A stretch of 64,000 nucleotides of DNA. Origin: Mesorhizobium sp. SARCC-RB16n. Lineage in GTDB: Bacteria; Pseudomonadota; Alphaproteobacteria; Rhizobiales; Rhizobiaceae. The stretch lies in assembly GCF_008520305.1 (NCBI RefSeq), contig NZ_ML703270.1, forward strand, positions 135,644-199,643, read 5' to 3'. The position numbers and the translations under genes are program-made. The notes beneath the pieces were generated by a model that saw only the letters and a list, made by a program, of their open reading frames with translations, searched no databases and was not told the DNA's origin. Positions 8,501-60,784 of the stretch are shown piece after piece (position 1 is the first letter of the stretch; the number at the start of each line of letters is the position of its first letter).

Positions 8501-8742
8501 ACCATCCAGGCCTGCCTTGGTTTCCAAATCGGAAGTGGATCATTCCGTTCGCCGGCTTGATTCTTGCAAGGCATGAGCCGCTTCCGGGCGGCTTCGCCAT
8601 TCGACGGTGTCCTGACGCATGCAAAGACGTGACGGCTGCCATGTCGAGATATCGGTTGAGTGAACGACTGAAAGGCGCGACGCTTCGCGTCGGCGCGGCA
8701 AACAAACGACAAAAGTCATAAAAATGACAGGAGCGGTCCAGG

Positions 8743-9450
8743 ATGACGGAAGCACTTGAAGGCAGGCATATCGTTGTGACCGGTGGAACCGGCGCGCTCG
8801 GTGGGGCGGTGGTCGGCAGACTGCTGGAGCAGGGCGCGATCTGCCATGTGCCGAACGCGCACGCCGCGACACCTCAGCACTTTCCCTTCACCACGCACGA
8901 CAATGTCAAGCTGGCGCACAATGTCGACCTGTCGGACTCGGCCAAGGTCGAAGCCTTCTATTCCCAGGTTCCTGCCTTGTGGGGATCGATCCATCTGGCG
9001 GGCGGCTTTGCCATGGCACCGGTTGAAAAGATCGAATCGGCATCCTTTGCCGAGATGATGGACACCAACGCCCGCACCACCTTCCTGTGCAGCCGTGCGG
9101 CTATCCGCTCGATGCTGACGACAGGCACCGCCGGCCGTATCGTCAATGTCACCGCGCGCGCCGGGCTCGACCCCAGGCGCGGCGCCGGCATGGTCGCCTA
9201 CACCGCCAGCAAGGCGGCGGTCGCGGCCATGACGGTGGCAATGGCGGAAGAGCTCAAGGCCAATGGAATCCTGGTCAACGCCGTGGCCCCCTCGACGCTC
9301 GACACGCCGGCAAACCGCGCCGACATGCCGGATGCCGACTTCACCAAATGGGTCAGCCTTGAAGCCGCGGCCGAAGCAATTGCTTATCTGGCCTCGCCCG
9401 CCAACCAGGCGATGAGCGGAACCCTGGTGCCGCTTTACGGCCGGGCCTGA
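8743..9450 (+). CDS. Short-chain dehydrogenase/reductase
   Basis: 235 residues. The cofactor motif VTGGTGALGGAVVGRLLEQG is at residues 11-30, and the YTASKAAVAAM catalytic Tyr-Lys is near 155-165. The usual catalytic Ser is not obvious: the segment reads NVTARAGLDPRRGAG, with Ala or Thr in its place, as in a dihydropteridine-reductase-like SDR subgroup. The substrate is unknown. It follows the decarboxylase after a 240-base spacer and ends at a strong terminator shared with the convergent rpsA gene. A role in reducing an aldehyde from the upstream pathway is possible but unproven. Confidence 0.82.
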   Translation: MTEALEGRHIVVTGGTGALGGAVVGRLLEQGAICHVPNAHAATPQHFPFTTHDNVKLAHNVDLSDSAKVEAFYSQVPALWGSIHLAGGFAMAPVEKIESASFAEMMDTNARTTFLCSRAAIRSMLTTGTAGRIVNVTARAGLDPRRGAGMVAYTASKAAVAAMTVAMAEELKANGILVNAVAPSTLDTPANRADMPDADFTKWVSLEAAAEAIAYLASPANQAMSGTLVPLYGRA

Positions 9451-9474
9451 ACTTTCAAGAGCATTCGCCAAACG

Positions 9475-9507
9475 AAAAACCCCGCCGGAGCGATCCGGCG
9501 GGGTTTT
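9475..9507. terminator. Bidirectional rho-independent terminator
   Basis: AAAAACCCCGCCGGA, loop GCGA, TCCGGCGGGGTTTT: a GC-rich stem flanked by A-run and T-run, so it can stop transcription from both the SDR gene (plus) and rpsA (minus), which converge here. Confidence 0.9.
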
Positions 9508-9528
9508 GTTTTGAGCTGTCCGAGGGGC

Positions 9529-44272: not shown

Positions 44273-44627
44273 GTCATTCCCCTGTCCATCCTGGCTGGAG
44301 CCGGTCTATGTGATGGCTCGTCGGGACTGTGAGGTTAGCGCGTGCCGAGTTCAAGCCGGCATGCGGCCGGACCGTCTGGGCCAACACCGTCAGGTTCCGT
44401 CTCGTCCCGTCTGCGACGCAGTCGGTGCGCATGTCCGATCGGGCAGGCGATCTCTCGGCGATCGCCGCGCTGTAAGACAAGGTGACAGGATTTGCCATTG
44501 AGCATGGGGTGCGATAGGCTATATTGCACTGCACAATGGAGACGCCGTTTCTTGTACGCCCCTGTTTGCGGATATGCCGGCTGGTTTGCGGCCTGCCGGT
44601 CCCGGGTCGTGTCGACGGGACCCTGAG
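44273..44627. other. Divergent spacer between SDR and exoQ
   Basis: About 350 bases without a convincing gene. It includes the exoQ leader with ACCCTGAGATG at the start; promoters for both directions probably lie here. No strong palindrome was noticed. Confidence 0.5.
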
Positions 44628-46225: not shown

Positions 46226-47494
46226 CTACTGGCTGGCCAGCGGCGCCAGCTTGACCTTGATCACATCGCCCGGCAGCACCAGCGTGTCTTCCTTGGCGGT
46301 GACTTCGCTGGTCTTGCCGTCGACATTGCGCACCAGCGAATAGAGCAAGGTAGGTTGCTGGTCGTTGGTGATGGCGGCCGTCGTCGCCGGATCGGTGGCC
46401 TGGGCGATCAGGCCCCTCTGCATATTCACCTTCAGCGCGGCCTCGTTCAGGTCGGCTTCGGTCTGCTGCCGGGCGGCGGCGAGGCTCGAGCTCAAGGTGT
46501 TCTGGGCGTCGATGGCGTCCTGCGTCGCCTTGCTGATCGCCTGCTTGGCGGTGAGGATGGCTGTCTCATAGTCCAGGATCTTGCCCTGCAGGTCGGTCAC
46601 GGACTGCTGCGAATCCAGGAGTCTGGCATTGGCGACCAGGCCCTTCTGCGCCAGCGGACCGATGCTGGCCAGCTGTTGCTGCGCCAGGTCGACCTGCTTC
46701 TGCTGGTTGGCGATCTTCTTCTGCAGCGATTCGATTTCGGCCTGCAACACACCCTTGAGATCGTCGAGCGCCTCGAGCTTCAGCTTCAGCGCCTTCTGGT
46801 CGGCGGTCAGGATCGTCATCTCGTCGTTGACGATGGCCGGCAGCCGCGGATCGCCCTCGACCTCCTTCGGTACGTCGAAGCTCGTCTTGCCAGCCATATC
46901 GGCGTCGATGCGGGCGCGCTTGACGATCAGCCGCACGCGCAAGTCGTCGGAGATGTCGAAATTGCCCTTGGCGGTGACCAGGTCCTTGCCGAGCTGCGGG
47001 CCGTAGTCGGCGTTGCGCCTGATGCCGCCGGCGACGCTGATCGCCTTCAGCACCGTAAGGTCGGGCACATAGGGAAATTGGCCGGGATTCTGCACTTCGC
47101 CCGAAATGTAGAACGGCCGGAACTGCGCCATTTCGACCGAGGCTTCGGGCTTGTCCGACAAAGCGAGCTTGCGCTGGAGCGCCTCGCCGATCGCCGCGGC
47201 GACCTCCGCCGTGGTCTTGCCCGCCGCCGGCAACTCGCCGACGAAAGGCACCGACAGGGTGCCGGCCGGACCGACCGTGTATTGGCCATTGACCGACGAC
47301 CAGTCACGGAACGTGCTTTCGACGGTCTGCCATTCGGCGATGCGGATGGTGAGCTTGTCCTGGGAGCCTAGACGGTAATCGTCGGCGGCGGCCAGCTGGG
47401 GAAAAGCGAGCGACATTGCAAGGCAGGTCACCACGAGCCGCGAGCGGCCGGAAAACGGGCCGCTGCCGAAGACTTCGAACATGTCTGTTTTCAA
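46226..47494 (-). CDS. exoF: Polysaccharide export protein, ExoF-like outer-membrane/periplasmic factor
   Basis: 422 residues with an N-terminal hydrophobic segment (LVVTCLAMSLAFPQLAAADD). It has the PES domain DDYRLGSQDKLTIRIAEWQT, then GPAGTLSVPFVGELPAAGKT, and the SLBB-type region AQFRPFYISGEVQNPGQFPYVPDL. A long coiled coil spans about 225-340 (LTADQKALKLKLEALDDLKG, AEIESLQKKIANQQKQVDLAQ and similar). Known ExoF helps export succinoglycan and is needed for the first sugar step. The terminator at 46136-46168 lies just downstream; exoY lies upstream at a 73-base spacing on the same strand. Confidence 0.9.
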   Translation of the reverse strand: MKTDMFEVFGSGPFSGRSRLVVTCLAMSLAFPQLAAADDYRLGSQDKLTIRIAEWQTVESTFRDWSSVNGQYTVGPAGTLSVPFVGELPAAGKTTAEVAAAIGEALQRKLALSDKPEASVEMAQFRPFYISGEVQNPGQFPYVPDLTVLKAISVAGGIRRNADYGPQLGKDLVTAKGNFDISDDLRVRLIVKRARIDADMAGKTSFDVPKEVEGDPRLPAIVNDEMTILTADQKALKLKLEALDDLKGVLQAEIESLQKKIANQQKQVDLAQQQLASIGPLAQKGLVANARLLDSQQSVTDLQGKILDYETAILTAKQAISKATQDAIDAQNTLSSSLAAARQQTEADLNEAALKVNMQRGLIAQATDPATTAAITNDQQPTLLYSLVRNVDGKTSEVTAKEDTLVLPGDVIKVKLAPLASQ

Positions 47495-47567: not shown

Positions 47568-48245
47568 TCAGTAAGAGCCACGTGACATCCATACGGCCGG
47601 CACGGTCCTGATGATGATGCGAACGTCCTCGAACAGCGACCAGTTCTCGACATAGTGGCGATCGAACGCGACGCGACTGTCATAGGAAACGTCGTTGCGG
47701 CCGCTGACCTGCCACAGGCCGGTCAGGCCGGGCCGGGACTTCAGATAATAGACGGCCGCGCTGCCGTAGATTTCCAGTTCGTCACGGACCACCGGGCGAG
47801 GCCCGACAAGGCTCATGTCGCCCTGGAGGATGTTGATGATCTGCGGCAATTCATCGAGGCTGAGCTTGCGCAGGACCGCTCCGACGCGGGTGACGCGTGG
47901 ATCGTTCTTCAGCTTGCGGGTCGCCATCCATTCCGCATTGGCGTCTGGATTGGTCGCAAGATAGGCGGCCAGCACCTTGTCCCCGTTCGGAACCATGGTG
48001 CGGAACTTGAGGCAGGAGAACAGCCGTCCGCCGCGCCCGATTCGCCGGTGACCGTAGAAAATCGATCCACCATCGGAGAATTTGACGAGCAATGCTATCA
48101 TGATGAACAGCGGGCTTAGCGCGACCAGTCCGGCCAGCGAGCCGGCGATGTCGAAGCTCCGCTTGATGAGGCCGCCGATCGGCGGCGGAAAATCGGTGTC
48201 AGCCTGCGAAAAGTCCGCCGTGGCCGACTTGGCAATATCCCTCAT
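47568..48245 (-). CDS. exoY: Undecaprenyl-phosphate galactose phosphotransferase (ExoY-like)
   Basis: 225 residues with one N-terminal membrane segment ([20 protein letters not shown]). The bacterial sugar transferase core is clear: [20 protein letters not shown] (Lys-Phe-Arg-Thr-Met), [20 protein letters not shown] with [26 protein letters not shown]. It loads the first sugar phosphate onto the lipid carrier and so commits the cell to EPS synthesis. ExoX, encoded divergently, represses ExoY post-transcriptionally in Sinorhizobium. It shares an operon with exoF. Confidence 0.92.
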
Positions 48246-48845
48246 ACGGAAACTCCATGCGTTGAACGAATGGTTTACCGCACGATATCAAAAAAATGCT
48301 GCAGCGCAACACACAATTTCCCATACCATTGAAATAGCCGCGTCATGAATTGACTAAATAATAAGCTCGATCTGCACAAATTTCGAAATTTTTAGCACAT
48401 TTGTGACAATAAATGGGCAAGGATAAAAAAATGCGGACGTTTTTGCGGCGATTTTTGGGCACGGCGTTCTCGGCGACGAGGGTCGGAGCATATTAGTGCT
48501 TTAGAAAGATGCCATCTTCGAAACTATTCACCTAAAATACTACTTAATATTATAGCCTGTACTCAAAGTCCGCGATGGCTGCAAGTTGAGTGAAATGCGA
48601 CCGTGTGCGTTGCAGCATGGCAGAGTCGAACGCGGAAACTCAATCAAAAATATGTGCGGTTGCCCTTGCCGCCTTCTGCCCGCCTTAATAGAATTGCAAA
48701 TTATACCTGTCATGGTCGCGACAGGTTGAAAGGCCGGAAGCAACCGGTCGGCAGCGGGTGACTTAACAAGCCCGCATAACAAGGGACGGCGCTCGGGTGG
48801 GGCTATCGTTGGATATAACCCGAGCCGGTTTATGGGCTGTTGGGT
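48246..48845. other. AT-rich exoY-exoX divergent control region
   Basis: About 600 bases, much less GC-rich than the window average between about 48290 and 48560 (runs such as AAATTTCGAAATTTTTAG). It is the divergent spacer for exoY (minus) and exoX (plus). AT-rich spacers of this kind are targets of MucR/Ros-type regulators in rhizobial exo loci (known for the system; not shown here). No gene is supported. Confidence 0.6.
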
Positions 48846-49121
48846 ATGTCGCTTCCAAAATTCGTCGTTGGGATGCTTTTCGCGCTTGCGATCGTCGTTG
48901 CCTGGTCCTGGCTCGGCGAGGCTTCGCTTGGCACGACGCTGATGCGCGTCATCATCTGCGCCGTGGTCATTCAGGCCGGTTATTTCGCGGTTGTCTACGC
49001 CATGATCGTCAGGAGCGCGCCGACGCCAGCTGACAGGCTGCGCGAAGCCGGAAGACAGCAGAACTCCACCGAAGTGCCCGAGGGCGAGAAGCTCGGCAGC
49101 GCCCGGCGGGGTTTGCGTTAG
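48846..49121 (+). CDS. exoX: Exopolysaccharide production repressor (ExoX/PsiA-like)
   Basis: 91 residues from ATG at 48846. The hydrophobic pattern MSLPKFVVGMLFALAIVVAW and GTTLMRVIICAVVIQAGYF with FAVVYAMIV gives two membrane segments, as in ExoX. A charged tail follows (ADRLREAGRQQNSTEVPEGE). ExoX reduces ExoY action, lowering EPS production when its copy number is high. It is divergent from exoY, as in Sinorhizobium, and is the last exo gene before the lasso-peptide cluster, whose first neighbouring gene is convergent. Confidence 0.85.
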   Translation: MSLPKFVVGMLFALAIVVAWSWLGEASLGTTLMRVIICAVVIQAGYFAVVYAMIVRSAPTPADRLREAGRQQNSTEVPEGEKLGSARRGLR

Positions 49122-49144: not shown

Positions 49145-50989
49145 TCAGGCCACATCGGCAGGTTCAGTCTCCGACTGCTCTCCCGATAGCATCCTGGACA
49201 GCCGGCTCCCCGGCTTCGCCTTCAACCGCTGATATTGCCCGACTTCAACGACACGACCGTCTTCCATCGCCACCACCCAGTCGGCGAAGGCGATCATCGA
49301 CGGCCGGTGCGCGATGGTCAGGATCGTCATTGTGCCGCGAAGGCCGTCGATCGACCTGGCGATAAGCGACTGGTTCTGCCAGTCGAGCGCGCTTGTTGCC
49401 TCATCCAGGATGAGCAGTGAGGGTTTCCGCAGTAGTGCGCGTGCCAGCGCGATGCGTTGACGCTCGCCGCCCGAAAGGCGCACGCCGCGGTCGCCGACCA
49501 CCGTCTCCAGCCCCAGGTCGAGCCGTTCGACGAATTCAGCGGCATGCGCGGCGCGCAGTGCCGTCCACAATTCGTCGTTGCTGGCTTGGCGCGCGGCAAG
49601 CCGTAGGTTCGCCGCGATCGTGTCATGCAGCAGGAACACGTCCTGCGGCACATAGGCCACCTGATCGCGCCAGCGGCGGCGATTGCCGGCATCGACCTCT
49701 ACGCCATCGACGAGGATCTTGCCGGCGGTCGGTTCGAGCAGCCCGAGCAGCATGTCGGCGATCGTGCTCTTGCCTGATCCGGACGGACCGATCAGGGCGG
49801 TGACCTTGCCGGCTGGGAGGCCGAAGGTGATGTCGCTCACCACCGCCTTGCCGGCTCCGTCGTCATAGGCGAAGGAGACGTCACGAATGTTCAGCCCCGT
49901 ATCGAGGGTCAGCTTGCGGGCATCCCTGGATTCGACATGGCCAGGCTCCCGCTCGGCGTCGAAACGTGCCTGCAGGCTGCGCATTGCCGTATAGGCGGGC
50001 AGGTTGATCAGCACCTGCTGGGCCTGCGTCTGCATGTCCATGAAGCGCGGCGCGATCCGCATGAAGACCAGGAGCAGGACGACGATCTCGGCCAGCGACA
50101 GGTTGAAGCGAACCAGCGCCACATAGATGAAGACGCTCAAACCCACGACGCTCGCCACCTGGAACACGGCGGTGCCGATCGAGCTGTTCCGCACATAAGC
50201 GATGTTGTCGGCCTTCATCTTTTCGAGCGTGGCCTGCAGCTGCGCGAAATAGCTGGCCTCGACATTCAGGCTCTTGGCCACCTTGATGCCGCCGAGAAAT
50301 TCCGAGACCGTGCGGTACTGGTCCTGGCGATTGGTCGTCAGGATCCGGCCGAAGGCGGTGGCCCGCGAGCGAAACGGCTGCAGCGCTATGAACATCACGA
50401 TGCCGATGACGACGGCAAACGCCGTCATGACCGGCGAGATGAACATGGAAATCACGAGATAGCCCGCCAGCAGCACGGCAATCTGCACCAGCATTAACAG
50501 GGAAAAGGCTGCCCCCTGGACGCGGTCGATGTCGCCGGTCAAAGCATGGTCGAGATCGGAGCCGCGCATGCGCGTGAACACGCCCCACCGCGCCTTGCCG
50601 ATGCTCTCGAACAGGTTCATGCGCAAGCGGTTGATGAAATCGAAGAGCAGCCTTGCCATATAGACTGACTTGAAGCGGTTGAAGGCTGCCTGCACGGCAA
50701 CAAGCCCGACCAGCAGGCAAAGCACCGTGGTCAGCTGCAGCGTTCCGCCGGGCACCAGCCAGCGGACGAAATCAATGTTCGGCAGCCTGACAGCGAAATC
50801 CTGGTCTGCGCGCCCGACCAGATGCAGCAGCGGAACCAGCAGCAAGATCGAGATGCCTTCCGTCAGGCTGCCGAGGATCAGGAACAGCAGCGCAGTCCAG
50901 GTTCGCCGCCCGCCGATCTGGGCAATGACGGCGCCGAACGCCGCTACATCGCGAAACAGCGACAGGCTGAAGACCGATGACCTAGGCAT
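49145..50989 (-). CDS. Lasso peptide ABC exporter (D protein)
   Basis: 614 residues with an N-terminal six-segment exporter domain (FLILGSLTEGISILLLVPLL to about 320) and a C-terminal ATPase. Walker A GPSGSGKST, Q-loop AYVPQDVFLLHDTIAANLRL, signature LSGGERQRIALARALL, Walker B LLILDEATSALDW and the switch in TILTIAHRPSMI are all intact. There is no peptidase C39 domain. Its start overlaps the kinase stop by 8 bases, and it ends the run A-B1-B2-C-K-D, so it very probably exports the mature lasso peptide and gives immunity to the producer. Confidence 0.85.
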   Translation of the reverse strand: MPRSSVFSLSLFRDVAAFGAVIAQIGGRRTWTALLFLILGSLTEGISILLLVPLLHLVGRADQDFAVRLPNIDFVRWLVPGGTLQLTTVLCLLVGLVAVQAAFNRFKSVYMARLLFDFINRLRMNLFESIGKARWGVFTRMRGSDLDHALTGDIDRVQGAAFSLLMLVQIAVLLAGYLVISMFISPVMTAFAVVIGIVMFIALQPFRSRATAFGRILTTNRQDQYRTVSEFLGGIKVAKSLNVEASYFAQLQATLEKMKADNIAYVRNSSIGTAVFQVASVVGLSVFIYVALVRFNLSLAEIVVLLLVFMRIAPRFMDMQTQAQQVLINLPAYTAMRSLQARFDAEREPGHVESRDARKLTLDTGLNIRDVSFAYDDGAGKAVVSDITFGLPAGKVTALIGPSGSGKSTIADMLLGLLEPTAGKILVDGVEVDAGNRRRWRDQVAYVPQDVFLLHDTIAANLRLAARQASNDELWTALRAAHAAEFVERLDLGLETVVGDRGVRLSGGERQRIALARALLRKPSLLILDEATSALDWQNQSLIARSIDGLRGTMTILTIAHRPSMIAFADWVVAMEDGRVVEVGQYQRLKAKPGSRLSRMLSGEQSETEPADVA

Positions 50990-51959
50990 CTCCAGCCAGT
51001 TCCTTTTCGATCAGCGCCACAGCCTCGCCGATCCTGTCGATGCCCGTCGGAACGTCCAGCCGGCACACGCCGACATGGTTAGCGATCGCTGAACAGTGGC
51101 GAAGATGCATCGCCGCGAAATCGCCGGAGAGCGCCGCGCGGCCGAACCGCGTCACGTAGGAGAATTTGATGATGGCCGGCAAGGCGGCAATGTGAGGCAA
51201 GGGGGTAATCCCGGCCCTTTCGCCACGCTCGAGGATATAGATCCTGGCCGCCGGCACCCTGTTGCTGGAAAAGGCGCCGTGCAGGCGATGCTGCATCTTC
51301 TCGATCGCCGGATGCACTTGCGGCCGCACTTGCGCCTGCCCGAGCGGGATCGCCGCCGCGGCATCGGCGGCAAGCTTGATCTGCGGAAACCCCGGAACGA
51401 TCATCGGCCGGTTCGGGTCTGCCAGGTCGAGCGCCACGACGTCGTCGGTAAGCAGATCGTGTCCGGCCCGGATCGCCGCGCTTGCCGTCGTCGATTTGCC
51501 GGCGCCCTTGTCGCCCATGAAGATGACGCCCCTGCCGGTCACGGCTATGGCGCTGGCATGCAGAACCAGCAGGCCGCGCTGGTGCAAAAGCAGCGCCAGC
51601 ACCGGCCCCAGCAACGGGAAGGCAAGCAAGGCGTCGTCGACGCTGGGTGCCGGCTGGACATCGATGCGGCGGGCATCACTGATCAGGAATGCGCCGACAG
51701 CGTCCCAGGCCAGATACTGCCGGTCAGGCTCGAAGCGGAAGGTGGTCCCGGCCTCCGCCGAAGGCTTGGGTATATCGATCGGGCCGATGGCGATCTCGAT
51801 GTCGGCCGCCGCCGGCTCTGCCGGCTCCAGTTCGGGCAGTGATACTTCGGACGCGATGATCAGGCCGTAGGCGCGGTAGTAACGTCGTTCTCCCGCGATC
51901 CTGGCGCGCTGGGGAAGATGGTCGAGATCGCCGGCGAACGGCTCATGGCGGGACATCAT
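50982..51959 (-). CDS. HprK-like serine kinase tailoring the lasso peptide (K protein)
   Basis: 325 residues from ATG at 51959, overlapping the cyclase stop (ATGA). The HPr-kinase-type C-terminal domain shows HASAIAV (134-140), P-loop GDKGAGKSTTAS (149-160) and LLTDDVVALD (169-178) with the acidic pair D172-D173. It lacks the N-terminal HPr-kinase regulatory domain. HprK-like enzymes in lasso clusters (paeninodin type) phosphorylate the C-terminal Ser of the precursor. The precursor here does end in Ser, which supports that role. Confidence 0.85.
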   Translation of the reverse strand: MMSRHEPFAGDLDHLPQRARIAGERRYYRAYGLIIASEVSLPELEPAEPAAADIEIAIGPIDIPKPSAEAGTTFRFEPDRQYLAWDAVGAFLISDARRIDVQPAPSVDDALLAFPLLGPVLALLLHQRGLLVLHASAIAVTGRGVIFMGDKGAGKSTTASAAIRAGHDLLTDDVVALDLADPNRPMIVPGFPQIKLAADAAAAIPLGQAQVRPQVHPAIEKMQHRLHGAFSSNRVPAARIYILERGERAGITPLPHIAALPAIIKFSYVTRFGRAALSGDFAAMHLRHCSAIANHVGVCRLDVPTGIDRIGEAVALIEKELAGDA

Positions 51960-53875
51960 ACGGGGCTCCCGCCATGCTGGACTTGCCGCAGCCACAGCGA
52001 CAGTGACGCCGAGCGCCAGACATACTGGACATCGAGCGGCGCCGCTTGATCCGGCTGGCGCAGCAGCCGCGCATAGGCGGCGTTTACTTCCGGCAGGTTG
52101 ACATAGGGCGCGATGCGACCCGCATCGCCAACCAGCAACTGCTCCAGCAGGTCGCGATGGTTGCGCACCATGCCGTTGACGAGATTGGCGGTGAAATCGA
52201 TCTTGTCGCGCCGCCACTGGACCGCAGCCGGCAGGATGCCCTCCATGGCCCGGCGCAACACGTAGCGGCCAAAGCCGTGACTGAGCTTCTGCTCGCCCGG
52301 CAGCCCCAGGCAGAATTCGACCAGCGGCTTGTCCCAGAACGGATAACGCGGCTCGACGCCGAAATTGGCGGCGGCCTTGTCCAGAACCTCGAAAGAGTGC
52401 GGCACATAGCCGTTGGACAGGATCCAGCGGTGGCTGAGCGCGTCGCTGGCCTGGACGCCGGGCGGCATATAGCCGGCTCGGTGGAACCGGTCGATGAGCT
52501 CGGTTCGCCTGGCAAGGTCCGGATTGATCAGGTCGCGCCAACTCCGGCCACGCCGCGATTGGGCAGGCCTGCGTATTCTGTTCAGGACGCGGTTCCCTAG
52601 CTGTCTCAGCCTGGCGATGCGCCAGGCCGGCCCGTAAATAGTGAGGAACTGGAAATAGAGGCCGAGCGTGCTGTCGTCATAGGTGTCGGAGGCGCTGCGG
52701 ACCTCGCGCCAGAGGTCCAGCCATCTGCCGCCATTTGCAAGCTCGTGCAGATGGCCATGTCCCTGTGAAACGACCTCGTCGCCGCCATGGCCGTCGAGCA
52801 GCACCTTGATGCCCTTGGCGCCCGCGGTCCGGTAGATGCTGCGGGTCAGCGTCAGGCCCGGCGCCAGGAAGGTGCCTTCCTGCTCCTCCAGCACCCGGTC
52901 GAATTCAGCGAAGGGTGCATAATTGCCGACGGGGATCAGCGTCGGGTCGGCCTTATGCTGATCCAGCACTGCATCGATGAAGGAGCGCTCGTCCATCGAC
53001 GAACCCTTCTCGAAAACCAGCGAGAAGGTCGGCAGCTTCGGCTTGCGCCCGGCCGCATTTTGCAACCCGGCCACGCAGGCGATCGACGAGGAATCGAGGC
53101 CGCCGCTCAGCATCGCGCCGACCGACGGACTTCCCCGCATGCGATTGCGGACCGATTGCGAGAACAGATGGGCGAATTCTTCCGCGGCATCGGACCGCGG
53201 TGCCCGCTGCAATGGCTCGATCTGCCAATACCGGCGCAGCACCAGACGTTGCGCGGTGACGGTGAGGCTGTGACGCGCCGGCAGGGCAAAGATGTCGCAG
53301 TAGGGCGTGGATTGCGGGTCATCGGGCAGGCCGGCCAGGAATCCGGAAATCCGGTGCTCGCTGAGGCGCGCATCGACCCCGTCGAGGCCGAGCATTGGCC
53401 CGATCTCGGAAGCAAAGGCAAAGCGTCGTTCCGCCGCGTGGTAGTAGAATGGCTTGACGCCGAAATGGTCTCGCGCGCAGAACAAAAGCTGCCGTTCGGC
53501 ATCCCAGACAGCAAAGGCGAAATCGCCTTGCAGATGCACGGGGCAGGCTTCACCCCAGCGCAGATAGGCCCGCATCAGCAATGTCGCGTCGGCGACTGAG
53601 CTGTCCCTGATGCCGAGCCTGGCGAGCAGTTCGTCGCGGTTGTCGAGCCGGCAGTCGGCGGTGATGGCCAGCTTGCCGCCGGCCATGGTCAGCGGGCCGG
53701 GGCCGGCTTCGTCGGTCGTGTTGAGCCAGGCGTGGCCAAGCGCGATGCCGCCGTCCAGCCACCACGAGCTTCCGTCGGGACCACGATGGCGCATGCGCGC
53801 CAGCATCTGCTGGATGCTGCTCACCGCCTCAGGCGCGGGGTCCTGTCGCAGCAGGATTCCGGCCACGCCGCTCAT
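51956..53875 (-). CDS. Lasso peptide cyclase, asparagine synthetase-like (C protein)
   Basis: 639 residues from ATG at 53875 (MSGVAGILLRQDPAPEAV), overlapping the B2 stop (ATGA). It has the glutaminase-like N-terminal domain (RHRGPDG, LARLGIRD, GDFAFAVWDAERQLLFCARDHFG), but residue 2 is Ser where glutamine-using enzymes have Cys, so it cannot use glutamine that way. The synthetase half has the ATP pyrophosphatase loop SGGLDSS (257-263) and LLDGHGGDEVVSQGHGH. In lasso biosynthesis this protein adenylates the Asp side chain and closes the ring on the core N-terminus. Confidence 0.92.
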   Translation of the reverse strand: MSGVAGILLRQDPAPEAVSSIQQMLARMRHRGPDGSSWWLDGGIALGHAWLNTTDEAGPGPLTMAGGKLAITADCRLDNRDELLARLGIRDSSVADATLLMRAYLRWGEACPVHLQGDFAFAVWDAERQLLFCARDHFGVKPFYYHAAERRFAFASEIGPMLGLDGVDARLSEHRISGFLAGLPDDPQSTPYCDIFALPARHSLTVTAQRLVLRRYWQIEPLQRAPRSDAAEEFAHLFSQSVRNRMRGSPSVGAMLSGGLDSSSIACVAGLQNAAGRKPKLPTFSLVFEKGSSMDERSFIDAVLDQHKADPTLIPVGNYAPFAEFDRVLEEQEGTFLAPGLTLTRSIYRTAGAKGIKVLLDGHGGDEVVSQGHGHLHELANGGRWLDLWREVRSASDTYDDSTLGLYFQFLTIYGPAWRIARLRQLGNRVLNRIRRPAQSRRGRSWRDLINPDLARRTELIDRFHRAGYMPPGVQASDALSHRWILSNGYVPHSFEVLDKAAANFGVEPRYPFWDKPLVEFCLGLPGEQKLSHGFGRYVLRRAMEGILPAAVQWRRDKIDFTANLVNGMVRNHRDLLEQLLVGDAGRIAPYVNLPEVNAAYARLLRQPDQAAPLDVQYVWRSASLSLWLRQVQHGGSPV

Positions 53876-54390
53876 CGGCTGCCGTGGTCGACCAGGTGGG
53901 CGAAACCATCGACGGATCCGCCGAGCACGATGTGGTTGTCGCTGACAAGCCAGGCATGCGCCTTCAATTGCTCGCCCGTGCCGCGCTCGATGCCGATGCG
54001 GATATTCGACGCATTGCCCTTGCGCGCCAGGAGGTATTGGCCCGAAAGCGCCTGGGTCAGGCATGTGGCACCCGGCACGAACCGTGCGGCCGCTGCAACC
54101 CCCCAGGCGACAAGCCGCAACTCGCCCATGCTGGCACATTGGCGCGCGTTGAGCCGGGTCACCATCGCGCGGACGCGGTTGTAGGAGAACACTGTCAGCC
54201 CGAGCCGGACGGTCGCGACCACCAGCAGGCAGCGGCACAGGAAAAGCGTTTCGGAGCCGCTCAAGGACAAAATCCTGGTCAGACTCCGGCTGCCACGCCG
54301 CTGCTTCATCGGCGTGGGGGTTCTCTGCGTCACAGGTCTTTGCCGCGCAACCATGGCCTTCTGCCACACCTGCCTAGACGAGTGCCTCAT
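53872..54390 (-). CDS. Lasso peptide leader protease, transglutaminase-like (B2 protein)
   Basis: 172 residues from ATG at 54390, which overlaps B1; starts at 54354 or 54309 would give 160 or 145 residues and are also possible. Catalytic Cys110 lies in VPGATCLTQALSGQYLL and His145 in LKAHAWLVSDNHIVLGG, the pattern of the lasso-peptide B2 family, with an acidic residue likely nearby. It removes the leader when the RRE protein B1 presents it. Its stop overlaps the cyclase start (ATGA). Confidence 0.88.
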   Translation of the reverse strand: MRHSSRQVWQKAMVARQRPVTQRTPTPMKQRRGSRSLTRILSLSGSETLFLCRCLLVVATVRLGLTVFSYNRVRAMVTRLNARQCASMGELRLVAWGVAAAARFVPGATCLTQALSGQYLLARKGNASNIRIGIERGTGEQLKAHAWLVSDNHIVLGGSVDGFAHLVDHGSR

Positions 54391-54673
54391 GCTCAAGCCT
54401 CGCAAGCCCGGTTTCCGCCAAGCCTTTCAGCAATGCGTCGACGTCGGCCTTGCAGCGCTCGGCGTCGACATTGTAGCGCGCGAGAACGGCGCTGCGGATA
54501 TCGGCGATCGGCTTGGGCTCCTGGATCAGTTCCCAGATGAAAGCGCCGACACCGTTGAGGCTGTAGTAAATATTGGATCTCAGGTTGAGAAGCGCGAGGC
54601 CTTCGCCGAATTCGCAGGCCACGGCATCCTTGGTCGCGCTTATGCAATCGTGCTCAGATGGGTTCCAGTTCAT
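54374..54673 (-). CDS. Lasso peptide leader-binding RRE protein, PqqD-like (B1 protein)
   Basis: 99 residues from ATG at 54673. PqqD/RRE features: AVACEFGEGLALLNLRSNIY near residues 18-37 (three-strand sheet), SLNGVGAFIWELIQEPKPIADI (helix of the winged fold) and DVDALLKGLAETGLARL at the end. RRE proteins of lasso clusters bind the leader's YxxPxLxxxGxxxxxT segment. The precursor gene lies 133 bases upstream; the protease gene overlaps. Confidence 0.9.
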   Translation of the reverse strand: MNWNPSEHDCISATKDAVACEFGEGLALLNLRSNIYYSLNGVGAFIWELIQEPKPIADIRSAVLARYNVDAERCKADVDALLKGLAETGLARLEHEALV

Positions 54674-54723
54674 CCTAAAACCTCTTTTGCAAAACGTTGC
54701 CCACGCATCGGCAGGCTAGAGAA

Positions 54724-54745
54724 GTCGGGGATTTTCACCCCCGGC
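54724..54745 (-). promoter_or_regulatory. Hairpin between precursor and B1 gene
   Basis: On the minus strand GCCGGGG/TCCCCGAC can form a stem of about seven pairs with one G-T wobble, loop GTGAAAAT. There is no T-run. Partial termination after the precursor would raise its level over the enzymes; in lasso clusters such a hairpin is common. Confidence 0.35.
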
Positions 54746-54806
54746 TCCTACTTATCGTTCTTGGATCCTGGAGGTTCCAACGTCATTCTCCGGGATCAGG
54801 ATAGGC

Positions 54807-54959
54807 TTAAGAGAACGTGAGGTCGCCAATTGGCGTATGTGCGGGGAACGACGCATCGAGCGCCGTGTTGCCGCCGCCGCCCTGGGTGATGGTCTCGATC
54901 GAACCATGCACGGTCAGGCTTGGCGTTTCGTACTCCTGCTTTTCAACATTCTGTTCCAT
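54807..54959 (-). CDS. Lasso peptide precursor (A peptide)
   Basis: 50 residues from ATG at 54959, with AGGAGAG five bases upstream. The leader (residues 1-26) is MEQNVEKQEYETPSLTVHGS, then IETITQ, containing the recognition motif YxxPxLxxxGxxxxxT (Y10 to T25). T25 is at position -2. The predicted core (27-50, 24 residues) begins GGGGNTALD and continues ASFPAHTPIGDLTFS. Asp9 of the core fits a Gly1-Asp9 isopeptide ring of nine residues. The C-terminal residue is Ser, the target of the K kinase. It was missed by simple size filters because it is short. Confidence 0.93.
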   Translation of the reverse strand: MEQNVEKQEYETPSLTVHGSIETITQGGGGNTALDASFPAHTPIGDLTFS

Positions 54960-55467
54960 TTTACTCTCCTATCAAGCACTGGAAACGGCCTGTCGATTGC
55001 CGTCAGCACTTTCATGCTGCATTGCAATAGCTGCACGGCAATATTTATGAGTCAAGTCTCATTTACCCAGCGTTAATCAATTATGGGTTGCGAACGTCAC
55101 TCCCGTGTAAGAGATCCGCCTTTTGTGAGGTCAAAGCCGCGTGAAATCGCCGCTTGGTGCCGACAATAATGTAAGTATTTGATTTTGCTAGATGAAATGA
55201 AAATCACGCAGACGATTGATTTTAGATAACGCTAAACTATATCCGACTATCAGCCAACCACCGCTGATACCTCGGCTGACGCGCCGCTACGGGGTTGGAA
55301 TTCAGTCATGCACCTCGTCACTTTCGAGGGAAGCGGCAAACGCTATGGTTGCAAAATCTTGCACTGCGAAAGGAAAGGCTTTACGGCGCCGCGGTTTTTA
55401 AGGATGCTTTGCTTCGCACTTGCAGCATACGCGACGCGCAAACCGTTTTTTGGAGACTGTGCGCTCA
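54960..55467. other. Divergent control region of the lasso cluster
   Basis: About 510 bases between the precursor and the nucleotidyltransferase gene. Much of it, up to about 55250, is AT-rich, for instance AATATTTATGAGTCAAG and TGATTTTGCTAGATGAAATG. It probably holds promoters for both directions. A second precursor was not recognised, although it was not read exhaustively in all frames. Confidence 0.5.
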
Positions 55468-56598
55468 ATGGCCTTGCCGGAAAGCTCTTATGAACAACTG
55501 CGCGCAACCGACTGCGCCGATGAGATCGCCTATGTGCAAGCCTGCTTACGGTTGTATTTCGCGGCGCCGGCCGCCTCAACCGGCGAGGTGACGCCGCCCG
55601 GCCTTTCCGTCGCTGTCGTCACCGATATCGCCAGGCTGAACAAGGTCGGTACGTTCATTCTGAAGGCGCTGTCGCGTGCGCCGGCGCATGAGAGGCCGGC
55701 CGAGCTCTTCCCGTGGCTCGAAACCTATCGCAGAAGGACGGTTTCGATGAACGCCGCCTGCCTGATGGATTCGATGGCCATCAACGAGGCGCTGCTCGAC
55801 AGGCGGATTGATTTCGTCTTCCTGAAAGGGCCGTTCCAGCAGCATCTGCTTTACGACGATCACTTCATGAAGCCTTCGGGCGATGCCGACATCCTGGTCT
55901 CGCCGGCCGGGTTCTTGAGGGCACGCGAAGCGTTGCGCTCGATCGGCTACGAGGTGTCGGGCAAGTCACGTTCGGTCTGGTGGGTCCGATTCCTCGGCGA
56001 ACAGCACATGGTTCGCGGCAATGGGCCGAAATCATCTACGGTCGATCTTCATTACCGGCTCCAGCAGCCCGGCTCGCCCAGCCCGCGCGATGCAGACGGG
56101 TTTCTGCGGCGAAAACGGCTGGTCGAGATCACCGGCGCCGAAGTCCCCTTCACTTCGGCCGCCGACACTTTGATGCTGTCCTGCATCAGTGTCGCCAAGG
56201 CCCTGTTCAACCGGGAGCCCTGCGCCGGCTATGTCTGCGATATCAGGGCCAGCGCCAGCCGCCTCGACGAGGCCGATCAGCAGCGTGTGCTCGATGCCGC
56301 GGTGAGCCAGGGATTGGACGACACCTTGCTGCTCGGCCTGCGCGCCGCCGACGTGTTGCTGGGCGGCACCGGCACGCTTCTGTCGGAGCGGGCCAAGCCG
56401 ATCCTGTCGCGCATCGGCAATGAGGATCTGCTCAACATGGTCATCGCGCCATGGCTGTCGTCGCTGCGTTGGCCGCAGCGGCGGACCGTGTTGTGGGAAT
56501 TGTGCGGCAGGGCTCCCGTCCGCTATCTGGCCGAGGCTGGCTGGGCCGCGTCGGCAGACATCAGCCGCCGCATCTTCGAACGGCCGGCTAGCCCATGA
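55468..56598 (+). CDS. Nucleotidyltransferase family protein of the lasso cluster (PF14907-like)
   Basis: 376 residues from ATG at 55468; GGAG is about 11 bases upstream, and GTG at 55459 is an alternative. The nucleotidyltransferase core has FVFLKGPFQQHLLYDDHFMK and PSGDADILVSPAGF (metal Asp pair near 146-148), and VDLHYRLQQPG. Such proteins occur beside kinase-containing lasso clusters (for example the pseudomycoidin cluster, where sugar is added to the phosphorylated peptide, from memory). It is read divergently from the precursor. It may modify the phosphate placed by K. Confidence 0.8.
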   Translation: MALPESSYEQLRATDCADEIAYVQACLRLYFAAPAASTGEVTPPGLSVAVVTDIARLNKVGTFILKALSRAPAHERPAELFPWLETYRRRTVSMNAACLMDSMAINEALLDRRIDFVFLKGPFQQHLLYDDHFMKPSGDADILVSPAGFLRAREALRSIGYEVSGKSRSVWWVRFLGEQHMVRGNGPKSSTVDLHYRLQQPGSPSPRDADGFLRRKRLVEITGAEVPFTSAADTLMLSCISVAKALFNREPCAGYVCDIRASASRLDEADQQRVLDAAVSQGLDDTLLLGLRAADVLLGGTGTLLSERAKPILSRIGNEDLLNMVIAPWLSSLRWPQRRTVLWELCGRAPVRYLAEAGWAASADISRRIFERPASP

Positions 56599-56664
56599 GG
56601 GCGATGGATATCGAACGCGTACAGGGGCGAGGGCAGAACGAAACCTGTGCAAGAGGCTAATTCC

Positions 56665-57687
56665 ATGTCGATGACGAAATCCGAGGTTTGCGTGATCATC
56701 GCGGCCAAAAACGCGGCGCGCACGATCGCGGTTGCCATCGCATCCGCGCTGCGCGAACCGGAAGTGGTGGAGGTCGTCGTCGTCGACGATGGCTCTACAG
56801 ACGCTACGGCCGAGGTCGCCCGCTCCGCAAGCGATGGCAGCGGCCGGCTTACGGTCATGCGCCTCGACGTCAATCGCGGCCCATCCTTTGCCCGCAATGC
56901 CGCGATCGCCAGCTCACGGGCGCCGTTCGTCAGCATTCTGGACGCCGACGATTTCTTCCTCGAGGGCCGGTTTCGCAACCTGTTTGCCGGTGCCGATTGG
57001 GATTTCGCCGCTGACAACATCATGCTCATCAGGGATGACGCGACCGGCGACGCGACCAAAATCGTTGCCCCGAATTTTGCCGCCGATCCGGAATTCCTCG
57101 ATTTCGAACGGTTCGTGGAAGGCAACATCTCCAGGCGCCGCGTGCAAAGAGGCGAACTCGGCTTCCTGAAGCCCGTGATCAGCCGCGCCTTCCTCGACCG
57201 CCACGGATTGCGCTACGACGAAAGCCTGCGACTGGGTGAGGACTATGAGCTTTACGCGCGGGCGGTTGCCCACGGGGCAAGGTTCAAGGTCATCCGTTCC
57301 TGCGGCTACGGCGCCATCGTGCGCGCCGATTCGCTCAGCGGCCGCCACAAGACGCAGGACCTGAAACGGCTGGCCGACGCCGATCTGGCGCTGCTGGCCA
57401 TCGACAGCCTGCCGGAAGGGTCCAAGGCGGCACTGCGGCGGCACGAGCGGCATGTGCGCGACAAGTACCGGCTGCGCAATTTCCTGGACGTGAAGGCCGA
57501 GCGGGGCCTCGCTTCGGCAGCTGCCTACGCCTTCGCAAGCCAATCCAACCTCGTTCCCATCGTCCAGGGCGTGGCATCCGACAAGCTCGAGGCGTTGTTT
57601 CGCAGTGTCGGCCTCGTGTCCAGGAACAAGCGCGTGCCGCCGCTGCGTTTCCTGATGGCCGGAACCAGCGCGGGCAAGGGACGGTAA
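56665..57687 (+). CDS. GT2 family glycosyltransferase (exo-type)
   Basis: 340 residues from ATG at 56665 (AGAGG 8 bases upstream; GTG at 56647 is the longer alternative). GT-A features: VCVIIAAKNAARTIAVAIAS, VVVVDDGSTDATAEVARSA, DVNRGPSFARNAAIASSRA, and SILDADDFFLEGR with the DxD. It resembles ExoO/ExoU-type transferases, which add glucose residues to the succinoglycan subunit, but the exact member cannot be chosen. It is the first exo-type gene after the lasso cluster, where Sinorhizobium has exoU next to exoX. Confidence 0.82.
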   Translation: MSMTKSEVCVIIAAKNAARTIAVAIASALREPEVVEVVVVDDGSTDATAEVARSASDGSGRLTVMRLDVNRGPSFARNAAIASSRAPFVSILDADDFFLEGRFRNLFAGADWDFAADNIMLIRDDATGDATKIVAPNFAADPEFLDFERFVEGNISRRRVQRGELGFLKPVISRAFLDRHGLRYDESLRLGEDYELYARAVAHGARFKVIRSCGYGAIVRADSLSGRHKTQDLKRLADADLALLAIDSLPEGSKAALRRHERHVRDKYRLRNFLDVKAERGLASAAAYAFASQSNLVPIVQGVASDKLEALFRSVGLVSRNKRVPPLRFLMAGTSAGKGR

Positions 57688-57995
57688 GGCGCGGGAGCGT
57701 CCGGTGCTGCCTGGCGCGAGCCCACCACGCGACCGTTTCGATCGGATTTATGAGTTTACGAATTGGGTGGTTGCCTCGCGGCTCCGGGGATGGCAATCTA
57801 TGCTGCGGTGCAGCAAATTGAACGACCAGCCGAACTGGCCCCCGATCGGACTGGTCCGAAGTCTCTCTTCGTCAGAGGAGCGGACGATGCGGTACGAGTT
57901 TTCAGCCCCGGTTGCGGGGATCGGCCAGTGGCCCGGCCGGAAAGCCGGCCCAGAAAGCCGGCCCAGAAAACCGGCGATGACGGGAATTTAAGTTC
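57688..57995. other. Intergenic region with short GCCGGCCC repeats
   Basis: About 300 bases without a supported gene. Near the right end GGCCGGAAAGCCGGCCCAGA and AAGCCGGCCCAGAAAACCGG give a small tandem repeat just before the next start. Confidence 0.5.
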
Positions 57996-58542: not shown

Positions 58543-59403
58543 ATGAATTCGGATCCAAAAATCACGTCCACGACAGCAATCGACGCCCCCCTGCATTTCG
58601 GCTGGCGGTCCGGCCTGGCGGTCGTTTTGCTGCTTGTCGCTTTTGGCAGTCTGCCGACAACCCCGTCTCATGCGCAGGATACCCAGTCCGCGCCCTCTTT
58701 CGTCGACGATTTCAAGAATTTCGACCGCGAGCGCTGGTACGTTTCAGACGGCTGGACAAACGGCAGCCATCAGAACTGCACCTGGTCGAAAGGCCAGATC
58801 GAGCTTTCCGATGGCGTTCTTTCGCTCGGTTTCGCGAAGCAGAAGACCAAGGATCGTGAGTTCGCCTGCGGCGAGATCCAGACCAAGCAGCGCTTCGGCT
58901 ATGGTACCTATGAGGCGCGGATGAAAACCGATACCGGACCCGGCCTCAACGCGGCTTTCTTCTCCTATATCGGCCCGGCCGACAAGCAGCCTTGGGACGA
59001 GATCGATTTCGAGATCCTCACCAAGGACACGTCCAAGGTGCAGGTCAACGCCTATATCGATGGCAAAGGCAAGAACGAGAAGCTGGTCGACGTGCCCGGC
59101 GGCACCGACAGTGGCTTCAACGACTACGCCTTCGTCTGGGAGAAGGATAGTCTGCGCTGGTACGTCAACGGTCAGTTGGTCAACACCATCACCGATCCTG
59201 CGAAGTTGCCCAGCCATGCGCAGAAGATTTTCTTCAGTTTTTGGGGCAGCGACACGATGAAGGGCTGGATGGGAGCGTTCGCCGATCCGGGCCGCAAGCT
59301 TTCGCTGCAGGTCGAGCGCGTCGCCTTCACCGCGATCGGCCAGCCCTGCCAGTTTCCGGAATCGCTGGTGTGCAGCGTAAAAGAGTTGGGAAAGACGAAT
59401 TGA
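58543..59403 (+). CDS. exoK: GH16 endo-beta-glycanase (ExoK-like)
   Basis: 286 residues with an N-terminal signal (LAVVLLLVAFGSLPTTPSHA, cleavage near residue 45). The GH16 active-site signature is WDEIDFEIL with E153, D155 and E157. Other family segments: CGEIQTKQRFGYGTYEARMK, NAAFFSYIGP, VQVNAYIDGKG, FVWEKDSLRWYVNGQLV. ExoK cleaves nascent succinoglycan and sets chain length. Neighbours are other polysaccharide genes. A pair of cysteines in PCQFPESLVCSV closes the C-terminus. Confidence 0.9.
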   Translation: MNSDPKITSTTAIDAPLHFGWRSGLAVVLLLVAFGSLPTTPSHAQDTQSAPSFVDDFKNFDRERWYVSDGWTNGSHQNCTWSKGQIELSDGVLSLGFAKQKTKDREFACGEIQTKQRFGYGTYEARMKTDTGPGLNAAFFSYIGPADKQPWDEIDFEILTKDTSKVQVNAYIDGKGKNEKLVDVPGGTDSGFNDYAFVWEKDSLRWYVNGQLVNTITDPAKLPSHAQKIFFSFWGSDTMKGWMGAFADPGRKLSLQVERVAFTAIGQPCQFPESLVCSVKELGKTN

Positions 59404-59452: not shown

Positions 59453-60784
59453 ATGAACTTGACGGTGTTTGGAATTGGCTATGTCGGCCTCGTGCAGGCG
59501 GCGGTGCTTGCCGAGGTTGGCCACCAGGTTGTCTGCGTCGACATCGACGCAAGCAAGGTGGAGCGGCTCAACCAGGGCTTCGTCCCGATCTTCGAGCCAG
59601 GCCTTGAAAGCATCGTCAGGGAAAACCACGCCGCTGGCCGCATCAAGTTCACCACCGATGCGGCGGCTGCCGTCAGGCATGGCGAAATCCAGATGATCGC
59701 GGTCGGTACGCCTCCCGGCGAGGACGGTTCGGCCGACCTCAAATATGTGCTGGCGGTCGCCGAGACTATCGGCCGCGAGATGGACACCGCCAAGATCGTT
59801 GTCGGCAAGTCGACCGTGCCGGTCGGCACTTGCGAAAAGGTGAAGGCCAGGATTGCCGAAACGCTGAAGAAGCGGGGCCGCGAGGACCTCACCTTCGACG
59901 TCGCGTCCAATCCCGAATTCCTCAAGGAGGGCTCCGCCGTCGCCGACTGCATGAAGCCCGACCGCATCATCGTCGGCACCGACAGCGAGGATACTGAGGC
60001 CGTGATGCGCGAACTCTACGCGCCCTTCAATCGCAACCACGAGAAGATGATCGTGATGGACGTGCGCAGCGCCGAATTCACGAAATATGCCGCCAACTGC
60101 ATGCTGGCGACCAAGATCAGCTTCATGAACGAGATGGCGAACCTCGCCGAGCAGCTCGGCGCCGACATCGAGGAGGTGCGCAAGGGTATCGGCAGCGATC
60201 CGCGCATCGGCTACCATTTCATCTATCCGGGTCTCGGCTATGGCGGCTCGTGCTTTCCCAAGGATGTCCGCGCCCTGATCAAGACCGCCGAGGGCGTCAA
60301 ATTCGACGCCAAGCTGCTGCGCGCCGTCGAGGAACGCAACAACGACCAGAAATCCGTCCTGTTCGACAAGGTGCACCGCTACTTCAAGGGTAACCTCAAG
60401 GGCAAGACCTTCGCGCTGTGGGGCCTGGCCTTCAAGCCCAACACCGACGACATGCGCGAGGCGCCTGCCCGTGTCCTGATGGAAGCACTCTGGAACGCCG
60501 GCGCTACCGTGCAGGCCTATGACCCCGAGGCCATGCAGGAATGCCAGGCCATCTATGGGCTGCGCGACGACCTGATGCTGTGCGGCACCAAGGAGGCGGC
60601 ATTGCGCGGCGCCGATGCGCTGCTGATCGCCACCGAATGGAAGAGTTTCCGCGCACCGTCCTTCGATGCGCTGAAGGATGCACTGACCACGCCGGTCATC
60701 TTCGACGGCCGTAACCTCTACGACCCCAAGGTCGTGGCGCGCCACGGCATCGAATATCACTCGATCGGCAGAATGGCGGCATGA
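59453..60784 (+). CDS. UDP-glucose 6-dehydrogenase
   Basis: 443 residues. It starts [20 protein letters not shown] (NAD motif GxGYVG), has [60 protein letters not shown] and the nucleophile Cys267 in [14 protein letters not shown], followed by [19 protein letters not shown] for the C-terminal domain. It oxidises UDP-glucose to UDP-glucuronate for an acidic polysaccharide or LPS. It is followed 67 bases later by a GMC oxidoreductase. The exo cluster thus also encodes precursor supply, suggesting that the polymer contains uronate. Confidence 0.93.

Follow-up and report, generated by a model that had tools for sequence, protein, structure and literature searches.

A 64,000-nucleotide stretch of the genome of Mesorhizobium sp. 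SARCC-RB16n (contig NZ_ML703270.1, positions 135,644 to 199,643 of the forward strand; hereafter referred to as the window) contains a complete kinase-type lasso peptide cluster (genes A, B1, B2, C, K, and D) accompanied by a divergent PF14907 nucleotidyltransferase (NTase) gene (N) and flanked on both sides by exopolysaccharide (EPS) genes. This is a known type of cluster in an unexpected setting. The EPS position is no oddity of one genome: it is genus-wide, is also found in distant relatives, and comes with a common operator-like element. On homology, a lasso pathway with a precursor kinase is secure. We propose that the seven genes together yield a single secreted lasso peptide, part of the EPS system, made with it and acting in it, a reading that we hold to be probable, if not by a wide measure. 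Promoter sequences support the coregulation of the precursor gene with exoY, and we infer a role for the peptide in the EPS matrix.

Gene content of the cluster and its setting in the EPS locus

The six lasso genes lie on the minus strand, overlapping or almost so, and the NTase gene is read divergently from A (the whole block spans 49145 to 56598). The precursor gene A (54807 to 54959; 50 amino acids [aa]) matched NF033528 at 37.1 bits (cutoff, 33) and has homologs in 74 related loci. It is followed by genes for B1, a PqqD-like RRE protein (54374 to 54673; PF05402, 72 bits; NF033536, 53.5 bits, under the cutoff of 80); B2, a transglutaminase-like leader peptidase (53872 to 54390; PF13471; NF033537, 64.3 bits; cutoff, 33); C, the lasso macrolactam cyclase (51956 to 53875; PF00733; NF033535, 790 bits; cutoff, 525); K, an HprK-like precursor kinase (50982 to 51959; PF07475, 35.5 bits; cutoff, 33.3); and D, a HepA/MsbA-like ABC exporter (49145 to 50989; PF00005 and PF00664; NF045513, 328.7 bits, below the cutoff of 725). 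The plus-strand gene N (55468 to 56598) matched PF14907 at 103 bits (cutoff, 31.2). All seven genes that a first-pass annotation had read from the letters of the window are therefore present, and the profiles agree with the identities it gave to B1, B2, the cyclase, the kinase, and the NTase, with B2 and C falling in lasso families.

The split B1 (RRE) and B2 (Cys protease) proteins stand together with an asparagine synthetase-like cyclase, as in lasso clusters. The precursor leader ends in YETPSLTVHGSIETITQ, and the predicted core is GGGGNTALDASFPAHTPIGDLTFS. The Thr at leader position -2 and the Asp at core position 9 served to predict the core, which has a small residue at position 1 and an acidic residue within positions 7 to 9, giving a predicted G1-D9 ring, and which ends in Ser, as had been annotated. 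The calculated mass of the corresponding lasso is 2284.076, rising to 2364.042 with one phosphate and to 2526.095 with a hexose in addition. An HprK-like kinase with the His-Lys-Asp-Asp motif, a precursor with a C-terminal Ser, and a PF14907 NTase belonging to the cluster place it among the pseudomycoidin-like lasso types with a predicted C-terminal phosphate, in line with the kinase/NTase assignment of the first-pass annotation. We add that its leader motif is YxxP and not the WxxP of the paeninodin subfamily. In a search of solved structures, the kinase matched HPr kinases across the P-loop region, and the NTase, whose function is a prediction, had no match.

Start codons were set by eye at ATG 53875 for the cyclase and ATG 51959 for the kinase, each with a 4-base overlap with the preceding gene, and at ATG 54390 for B2. 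The NTase starts at ATG 55468 (listed, TTG 55420), because the codon directly before that ATG is a stop codon in 15 related loci. A broken NTase, considered because of in-frame stops in 17 genomes, was rejected on the same ground; in the 15 of 74 loci that show the stop, it lies one codon before ATG 55468. Stops near the start of the B2 match (5 loci) and near the end of the D match (1 locus) likewise lie at match ends.

On one side, the lasso block is flanked by minus-strand genes for an ExoY-like undecaprenyl-phosphate sugar transferase (47568 to 48245; PF02397, 211 bits; TIGR03022, 310.6 bits, below the cutoff of 403) and an ExoF/Wza-like polysaccharide export protein (46226 to 47494; PF02563, 60 bits). 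On the other side are three plus-strand genes, i.e., those for a GT2 glycosyltransferase (56647 to 57687; PF00535), a GH16 glucanase (58543 to 59403; homologs in 73 related loci; the homolog on a Paracoccus plasmid is annotated "family 16 glycosylhydrolase"), and UGD (59453 to 60784; homologs in 72 related loci). We take the GH16 gene to be exoK-like and UGD to be a UDP-glucose dehydrogenase-like gene. The EPS locus of the first-pass annotation is thus the actual setting of the cluster.

Distribution and synteny in Mesorhizobium

The genus was centered on G001, the nearest genome to the window (21% of sampled words in common), and its name was taken from named relatives; most of the relatives of the window cyclase are named Mesorhizobium, as the annotation of a Mesorhizobium-like genome had anticipated. 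The best 80 of 171 relatives gave 78 loci, 74 of which were used as the genus set (i.e., 71 named Mesorhizobium plus L060, L074, and L101, without L104, L105, L106, and L108; L105 is named M. denitrificans, but GTDB places it in a different genus, and it is 43% identical). The cyclases of these 74 loci are 73 to 95% identical to that of the window. In all 74 loci, the genes of the cluster and those next to it have the order and strand that they have in the window; all 12 genes tested are present in 71, and 3 are cut by a contig end.

Across the genus, the cyclase was detected in 103 of 146 genomes. The precursor was strong in the same 103 genomes, with two weak matches in others, and the NTase was found in the same 103 and in one fragmented, 79%-complete genome. 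Only 7 genomes of a 398-genome phylum sample passed NF033535 at 1e-100, all of this genus, and a precursor search of the family (297 genomes) at 0.01 reached only 4 genomes outside the genus.

An ExoF homolog (at 1e-50) is present in 37 of the 43 cyclase-less genomes, and 20 of these 37 were fetched around ExoF. ExoF, ExoY, GT2, and GH16 occur in order in all 20, with UGD as well in 19, and all 20 are without lasso genes and without a full NTase, the block being missing as one unit. The NTase and the lasso genes are thus present and absent together, the adjoining GT2 gene is retained (20/20), and the EPS genes persist without the block. A 135-base piece of the NTase gene remains in L197 and a 219-base piece of the exporter gene in L200, so that the block was lost in these two genomes; in the other cluster-less genomes, the block may have been lost or never acquired. 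Species that naturally lack the cluster but have an unbroken EPS locus provide ready control strains. In two genomes (G052 and G079; loci L195 and L196), the cyclase gene is broken or split and the precursor, the NTase, and the other genes remain, which suggests recent decay.

Conservation of the peptide and its enzymes

The ratio of nonsynonymous to synonymous polymorphism (pN/pS), calculated over the 74 loci, is 0.136 for the precursor. This is below the values of all of its own enzymes (0.23 to 0.35; D, 0.234; C, 0.259; NTase, 0.266; B1, 0.279; K, 0.328; B2, 0.349) and similar to that of exoY (0.130; UGD, 0.109), so that purifying selection is stronger on the precursor than on the enzymes that process it. 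By part, pN/pS is 0.030 for the leader and 0.258 for the core (73 of the 74 precursors; one with an ambiguous base was left out); antibiotic-style diversification of the core was looked for and not seen. The synonymous polymorphism (pS) of 0.42 is similar to that of the neighbors, so no recent sweep is indicated.

Thirty-three distinct cores, all of 24 residues, were found over 125 loci (i.e., 124 of the genus plus L104, with many genomes entered twice). Residues G1, D9, F12, P13, T16, T22, F23, and S24 are invariant, with G1 and D9 in 33/33 distinct cores, and all 125 cores end in Thr-Phe-Ser. S24 is the sole invariant Ser, as expected if it carries the phosphate. Also conserved are His-Lys-Asp-Asp in the kinase (74/74 loci), GDxD in the NTase (73/73), and Cys115 in B2 (74/74; numbering from TTG 54405). 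Pairwise distances of the lasso enzymes and the NTase follow those of the EPS proteins GT2, ExoY, and UGD (71 loci; B1 left out), with r ranging from 0.74 (B2) to 0.94 (NTase).

An operator-like element common to the precursor and exoY promoters

A CTTGAC hexamer is conserved in the precursor promoter (55051 to 55056, minus strand; promoter alignment), and we take it to be the -35-like hexamer. Downstream of it sits the element TTGCnnTGCAGCA, which belongs to a PhaR/AniA-like operator at 55012 to 55032 (minus strand; core TTGCAATGCAGCA at 55015 to 55027; a weaker overlapping copy at 55026 to 55046). The exoY-like gene, too, has this element upstream (48294 to 48314, minus strand). Exact matches were found upstream of A in 55/74 loci, upstream of exoY in 48/73, and upstream of exoY in 13/20 cluster-less genomes, with none upstream of eight other genes (72 to 74 loci each). 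When at most one mismatch was allowed (plus strand, 40 to 110 nucleotides [nt] upstream), the element was recovered at A in 74/74, at exoY in 73/73, and at exoY of cluster-less genomes in 20/20. The same relaxed search gave 2/73 for exoF, 1/72 for UGD, 0/73 each for the NTase, GT2, and GH16, 0/74 each for D, K, and C, and none in shuffled upstream regions; for the NTase, 3/73 were obtained when the whole 250 nt was allowed.

In Sinorhizobium meliloti, the PhaR (AniA) motif is described as having the core YGCRNYGCR, the exoY, exoL, and exoH promoters were bound by PhaR in an electrophoretic mobility shift assay, and exo gene products rise without PhaR (PMC12542648). A matrix was built from 17 sites in S. 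meliloti promoters given there as efficiently bound (one of the four exoH sites was chosen). Over the 64-kb window, the site at A ranked third (score, 17.4) and that at exoY fourth (16.6); the training sites scored 17.0 to 29.3, and among 12 Markov controls as long as the window, one had a site scoring at least 16.6. A PhaR homolog (TIGR01848) was found in all 10 genomes tested. The elements of the window, with an operator near the promoter of both A and exoY, fit the S. meliloti PhaR/AniA regulon in operator motif and in the exoY target; they differ from it in that the available part of the S. meliloti target table lists no lasso gene (PMC12542648). We infer that PhaR binds these predicted sites, and the precursor gene seems, from its promoter, to share an on-off switch with EPS production.

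Further upstream of the precursor, a block of the form CGCAACC-N3-AATTGATTAA or CGCAACC-N3-AATTGATTAAC (55072 to 55092, minus strand) is largely conserved among 21 aligned promoters of the genus. It was considered as a second operator; since it occurs only once in the window, no regulon could be proposed for it.

Related clusters beyond the genus

In a cyclase tree (49 rows; quick method, with only Shimodaira-Hasegawa-like approximate likelihood ratio test [SH-aLRT] support), the window cyclase falls within an 18-row group with a support of 99. Besides the genus, this group includes an alphaproteobacterial bin (L104), members of the family (L105, L134, L136, and L137), a Caulobacter (L106), plasmids of Paracoccus (L153), Sulfitobacter (L152), and Antarctobacter (L154), a Gemmatimonadota bin (L108), and a plasmid of the archaeon Halopiger (L155). 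The last, pHALXA01 of Halopiger xanaduensis, carries B1, B2, a cyclase, a kinase-like open reading frame (ORF), and an NTase, with a flippase, glycosyltransferases, and sulfatases as neighbors.

Strict polysaccharide markers were found within 12 kb in 9 of 11 clade lineages compared with 2 of 29 other cyclase loci (Fisher P = 1e-5), where the genus was counted once, the 4.5-kb contig L136 was left out, and the clade lineages are not fully independent. With looser markers, the counts are 11/11 and 5/29 (6/29 if the galU and polysaccharide gene of a Priestia plasmid are counted), with L137 and L154 counting only under these markers. The compared loci had been found via cyclase or precursor similarity or via the B2 or precursor profile, never via EPS genes. 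Some marker queries were derived from L152, L153, and L155 themselves (L152 and L153 also match the window ExoY), and the L155 marker rests on the PLSDB word "flippase." The outside loci come mostly from one alphaproteobacterial sample (26/29), and 6 of the 29 are shorter than 15 kb. The broader statement that all kinase-type lasso clusters are EPS clusters was rejected, with strict markers (12 kb) at 2 of 21 kinase-bearing loci outside the clade and looser ones at 4 of 21.

The core motif LD-x2-F-x3-TP-x3-LTFS recurs in Paracoccus (GNSRGSALDNTFQAGTPVSQLTFS) and in an orphan precursor on a plasmid of Nostoc sp. UHCC 0302 (GLKDGSALDKDFPTGTPRGKLTFS; L151, 10001 to 10138). A cyclase search of this Nostoc plasmid, on which there was no positive control, found none, and further plasmid searches yielded no additional records. 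The candidate cores of the Caulobacter and of the Gemmatimonadota bin end in Ser and do not fit this core motif. On the Priestia plasmid (Bacillota), GGSGEYTDAAFPTHTPKGDLTFES lies beside galU and SinI-family genes.

Proposed function and alternative explanations

Strong homology supports the core of the proposed pathway: B1 would present the precursor, the HprK-like kinase would phosphorylate the C-terminal Ser of the core, B2 would cleave after ..TQ, C would join Gly1 to Asp9 and thread the tail, and D would export the peptide. N may then modify the phosphate, by either glycosylation or nucleotidylation. As the promoter sequences suggest, transcription of the precursor would be tied to that of exoY via the common PhaR/AniA-type operator, and the peptide would be made when EPS is made, probably as carbon status changes. 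The mature peptide may act in the matrix or on matrix assembly, in association with the polysaccharide or attached to it, presumably as a fixed-sequence physiological product and not as a diversifying toxin. Its near-fixed sequence and the apparently common switch suggest a peptide that serves together with the coat and not as an antibiotic. For the role of phosphorylated lasso peptides, the present case offers a peptide, probably phosphorylated, that is at home in an entire genus of symbionts, that changes over evolution as a physiological gene would, and whose gene seems to have an operator in common with the step that commits the cell to EPS synthesis. If the proposal is true, a peptide component would be added to a polysaccharide that helps decide the entry of the bacteria into legumes.

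Several observations weigh against this proposal. The cluster is absent from 43 of the 146 genus genomes, and the EPS genes kept in all 20 cluster-less genomes fetched mean that EPS does not generally depend on the peptide; moreover, the cyclase gene is broken in 2 of the 103 genomes (G052 and G079). Precursor distances follow EPS distances less closely than do those of the enzymes (r = 0.60 versus 0.74 to 0.94). In L032, the core is GGASGAVTDAAFPAGTPFQDITFS, while the lasso and NTase proteins are 83 to 96% like those of the window; the core can therefore change while the leader and the enzymes hardly do. Such change does occur, in that the precursors of 3 of the 103 genomes (G030, G116, and G126) are at most 78% like that of the window. 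The Sulfitobacter core (L152) ends in TTP and not in Ser. As to the operator, the element was derived from the very promoters in which it was then counted, and the genomes are related, so that the counts show conservation and specificity and not discovery. Beyond the genus, an exact match is present at A in L105 alone among 4 loci and at exoY in none of 3; by eye, we noted TTGCAAYGCACCA upstream of exoY in L105 and L134 and TTGCAGCGCAGCA upstream of A in L134. The exoY site scores just under the weakest training site, and two stronger matrix sites occur elsewhere in the window (57798 to 57818 and 44519 to 44539). Both of these are in or near the EPS locus, one of them between the GT2 gene and a small ORF before the GH16 gene; they hint that more of the locus may be under PhaR control.

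The most serious alternative, which we nevertheless regard as unlikely, is a narrow-spectrum antimicrobial lasso peptide (i.e., a bacteriocin) that sits in the EPS locus by chance, with the phosphate and sugar tuning uptake or self-protection. Several lasso peptides kill close relatives, and D could be an immunity protein. The absence of the cluster from part of the genus, as a unit in the 20 genomes fetched, and the strongly changed cores of a few genomes (L032 and L220 to L222) would fit such a peptide, and Popov et al. interpret the patchiness seen in Bacilli as what biological conflict typically produces (PMC13381572). A bacteriocin is harder to reconcile with a genus-wide, near-fixed core, with lasso enzyme distances that follow those of EPS genes, and with the operator-like element in common with exoY. 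A second alternative is a signal secreted with EPS during infection and read by the legume. The absence of the cluster from 43 of the 146 genomes counts against it, as does the presence of related clusters, close to polysaccharide genes, in Paracoccus, Sulfitobacter, Antarctobacter, Caulobacter, the Gemmatimonadota bin, and the haloarchaeon, none of which is, to our knowledge, a legume symbiont. We consider such a signal quite improbable, even with a locus among the EPS genes of a nodulating genus and with reports that infection is impaired when M. loti R7A carries mid or late EPS mutations and that the plant has an EPS receptor (PMC6144797).

The least credence goes to a passive link, in which EPS loci would be places where cargo tends to accumulate and the common element would be a general promoter feature. 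Glycosyltransferase-rich loci do collect cargo genes, and most of the other lasso loci sampled from Alphaproteobacteria lie away from strict EPS markers, whether or not they include a kinase. A passive link would have to account for EPS neighbors that recur beside distant cyclases (35 to 53% identical), i.e., exoF/exoY-like genes and GT2 on opposite sides in L104 and L134, exoF/exoY-like genes in L105, and GT2 and GH16 in L137. It would also have to account for an element found in every A and exoY promoter of the genus set versus 0 to 2 of 72 to 74 in each of eight other upstream regions.

Among the ways in which the peptide could act with EPS, its being a covalent decoration of the polysaccharide through the phosphate is distinctly unlikely. 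CDP-ribitol and CDP-glycerol feed phosphodiester side groups of this kind. The kinase-made phosphoserine would be treated like a sugar-1-phosphate or an alditol phosphate; the PF14907 enzyme would activate it with a nucleotide, and a transferase would attach the phosphopeptide to one of the polymer's sugars. The hexoses on the pseudomycoidin phosphate would be such a phosphodiester. If so, the kinase/NTase peptides across the EPS-linked clade, which spans Mesorhizobium to haloarchaea, would be components of the matrix, as knotted, protease-proof slime appendages.

Comparison with known systems

Lasso kinases are described as phosphorylating the C-terminal Ser of the precursor, with the His-Lys-Asp-Asp motif being catalytic (PMC9266682). 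In pseudomycoidin, PsmK phosphorylates this Ser, and PsmN, an NTase homolog, is needed for the hexoses on the phosphate (PMC9266682). The window cluster has the same set of genes (A, B1, B2, C, K, N, and D) as pseudomycoidin and Bsf (Bsf, PMC10368454) and the same C-terminal Ser as pseudomycoidin. In Bsf, the phosphate is reported on ring Ser3 (PMC10368454), whereas S24 is the only invariant Ser here. The present cluster further differs from both in being genus-wide and embedded in an EPS locus, in its near-fixed core, and in an N gene divergent from A.

The paeninodin subfamily of the Bacillota also combines an HprK-like kinase with a C-terminal Ser and is often colocalized with capsule loci of Bacilli (PMC13381572). 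Its leaders are described as carrying WxxP, and under this rule the window leader, with YETP, falls outside the subfamily (PMC13381572). Moreover, paeninodin is patchy in Bacilli, with many gains and losses (PMC13381572), in contrast to the one syntenic locus of the genus described here. Popov et al. (2026) describe the roles of paeninodins, and of the lasso clusters often found in capsule loci of Bacilli, as unknown, with a contribution to biofilm formation being for them a tempting speculation (PMC13381572). In the literature searched, we found no account of a Mesorhizobium lasso peptide, and the suggestion of the first-pass annotation that the product is undescribed stands within it. Within the same literature (Kelly et al. 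2013, on M. loti EPS genes, lies outside it), a genus-wide member under purifying selection in alphaproteobacterial EPS loci is new, as are the joint presence or absence of its genes and the operator-like element in common with exoY.

The linear polyphosphorylated peptide (LPP) systems of the Bacillota resemble the window cluster in having an RRE, an HprK-like kinase, an NTP transferase, and an MsbA-like exporter near polysaccharide genes, and they differ from it in having a SipW-like peptidase and no cyclase (PMC13381572). In the window, the cyclase and B2 are both present; no search was aimed at a SipW-like gene. The window also holds a 93-aa ORF between D and exoY (48840 to 49121, plus strand). 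A separate cassette, without a cyclase, lies about 29 kb from the main cluster in G001 (L188, C1 232600 to 252500; cassette at 7684 to 10452). It encodes a PqqD-like B1 (recognized by eye), a B2-like protein (NF033537, 65.9 bits), an HprK-like kinase (TIGR04352, 32 bits; cutoff, 200), and a PF14907 NTase. The cassette resembles LPP systems, which are said to be restricted to the Bacillota, but B2 takes the place of the SipW-like peptidase.

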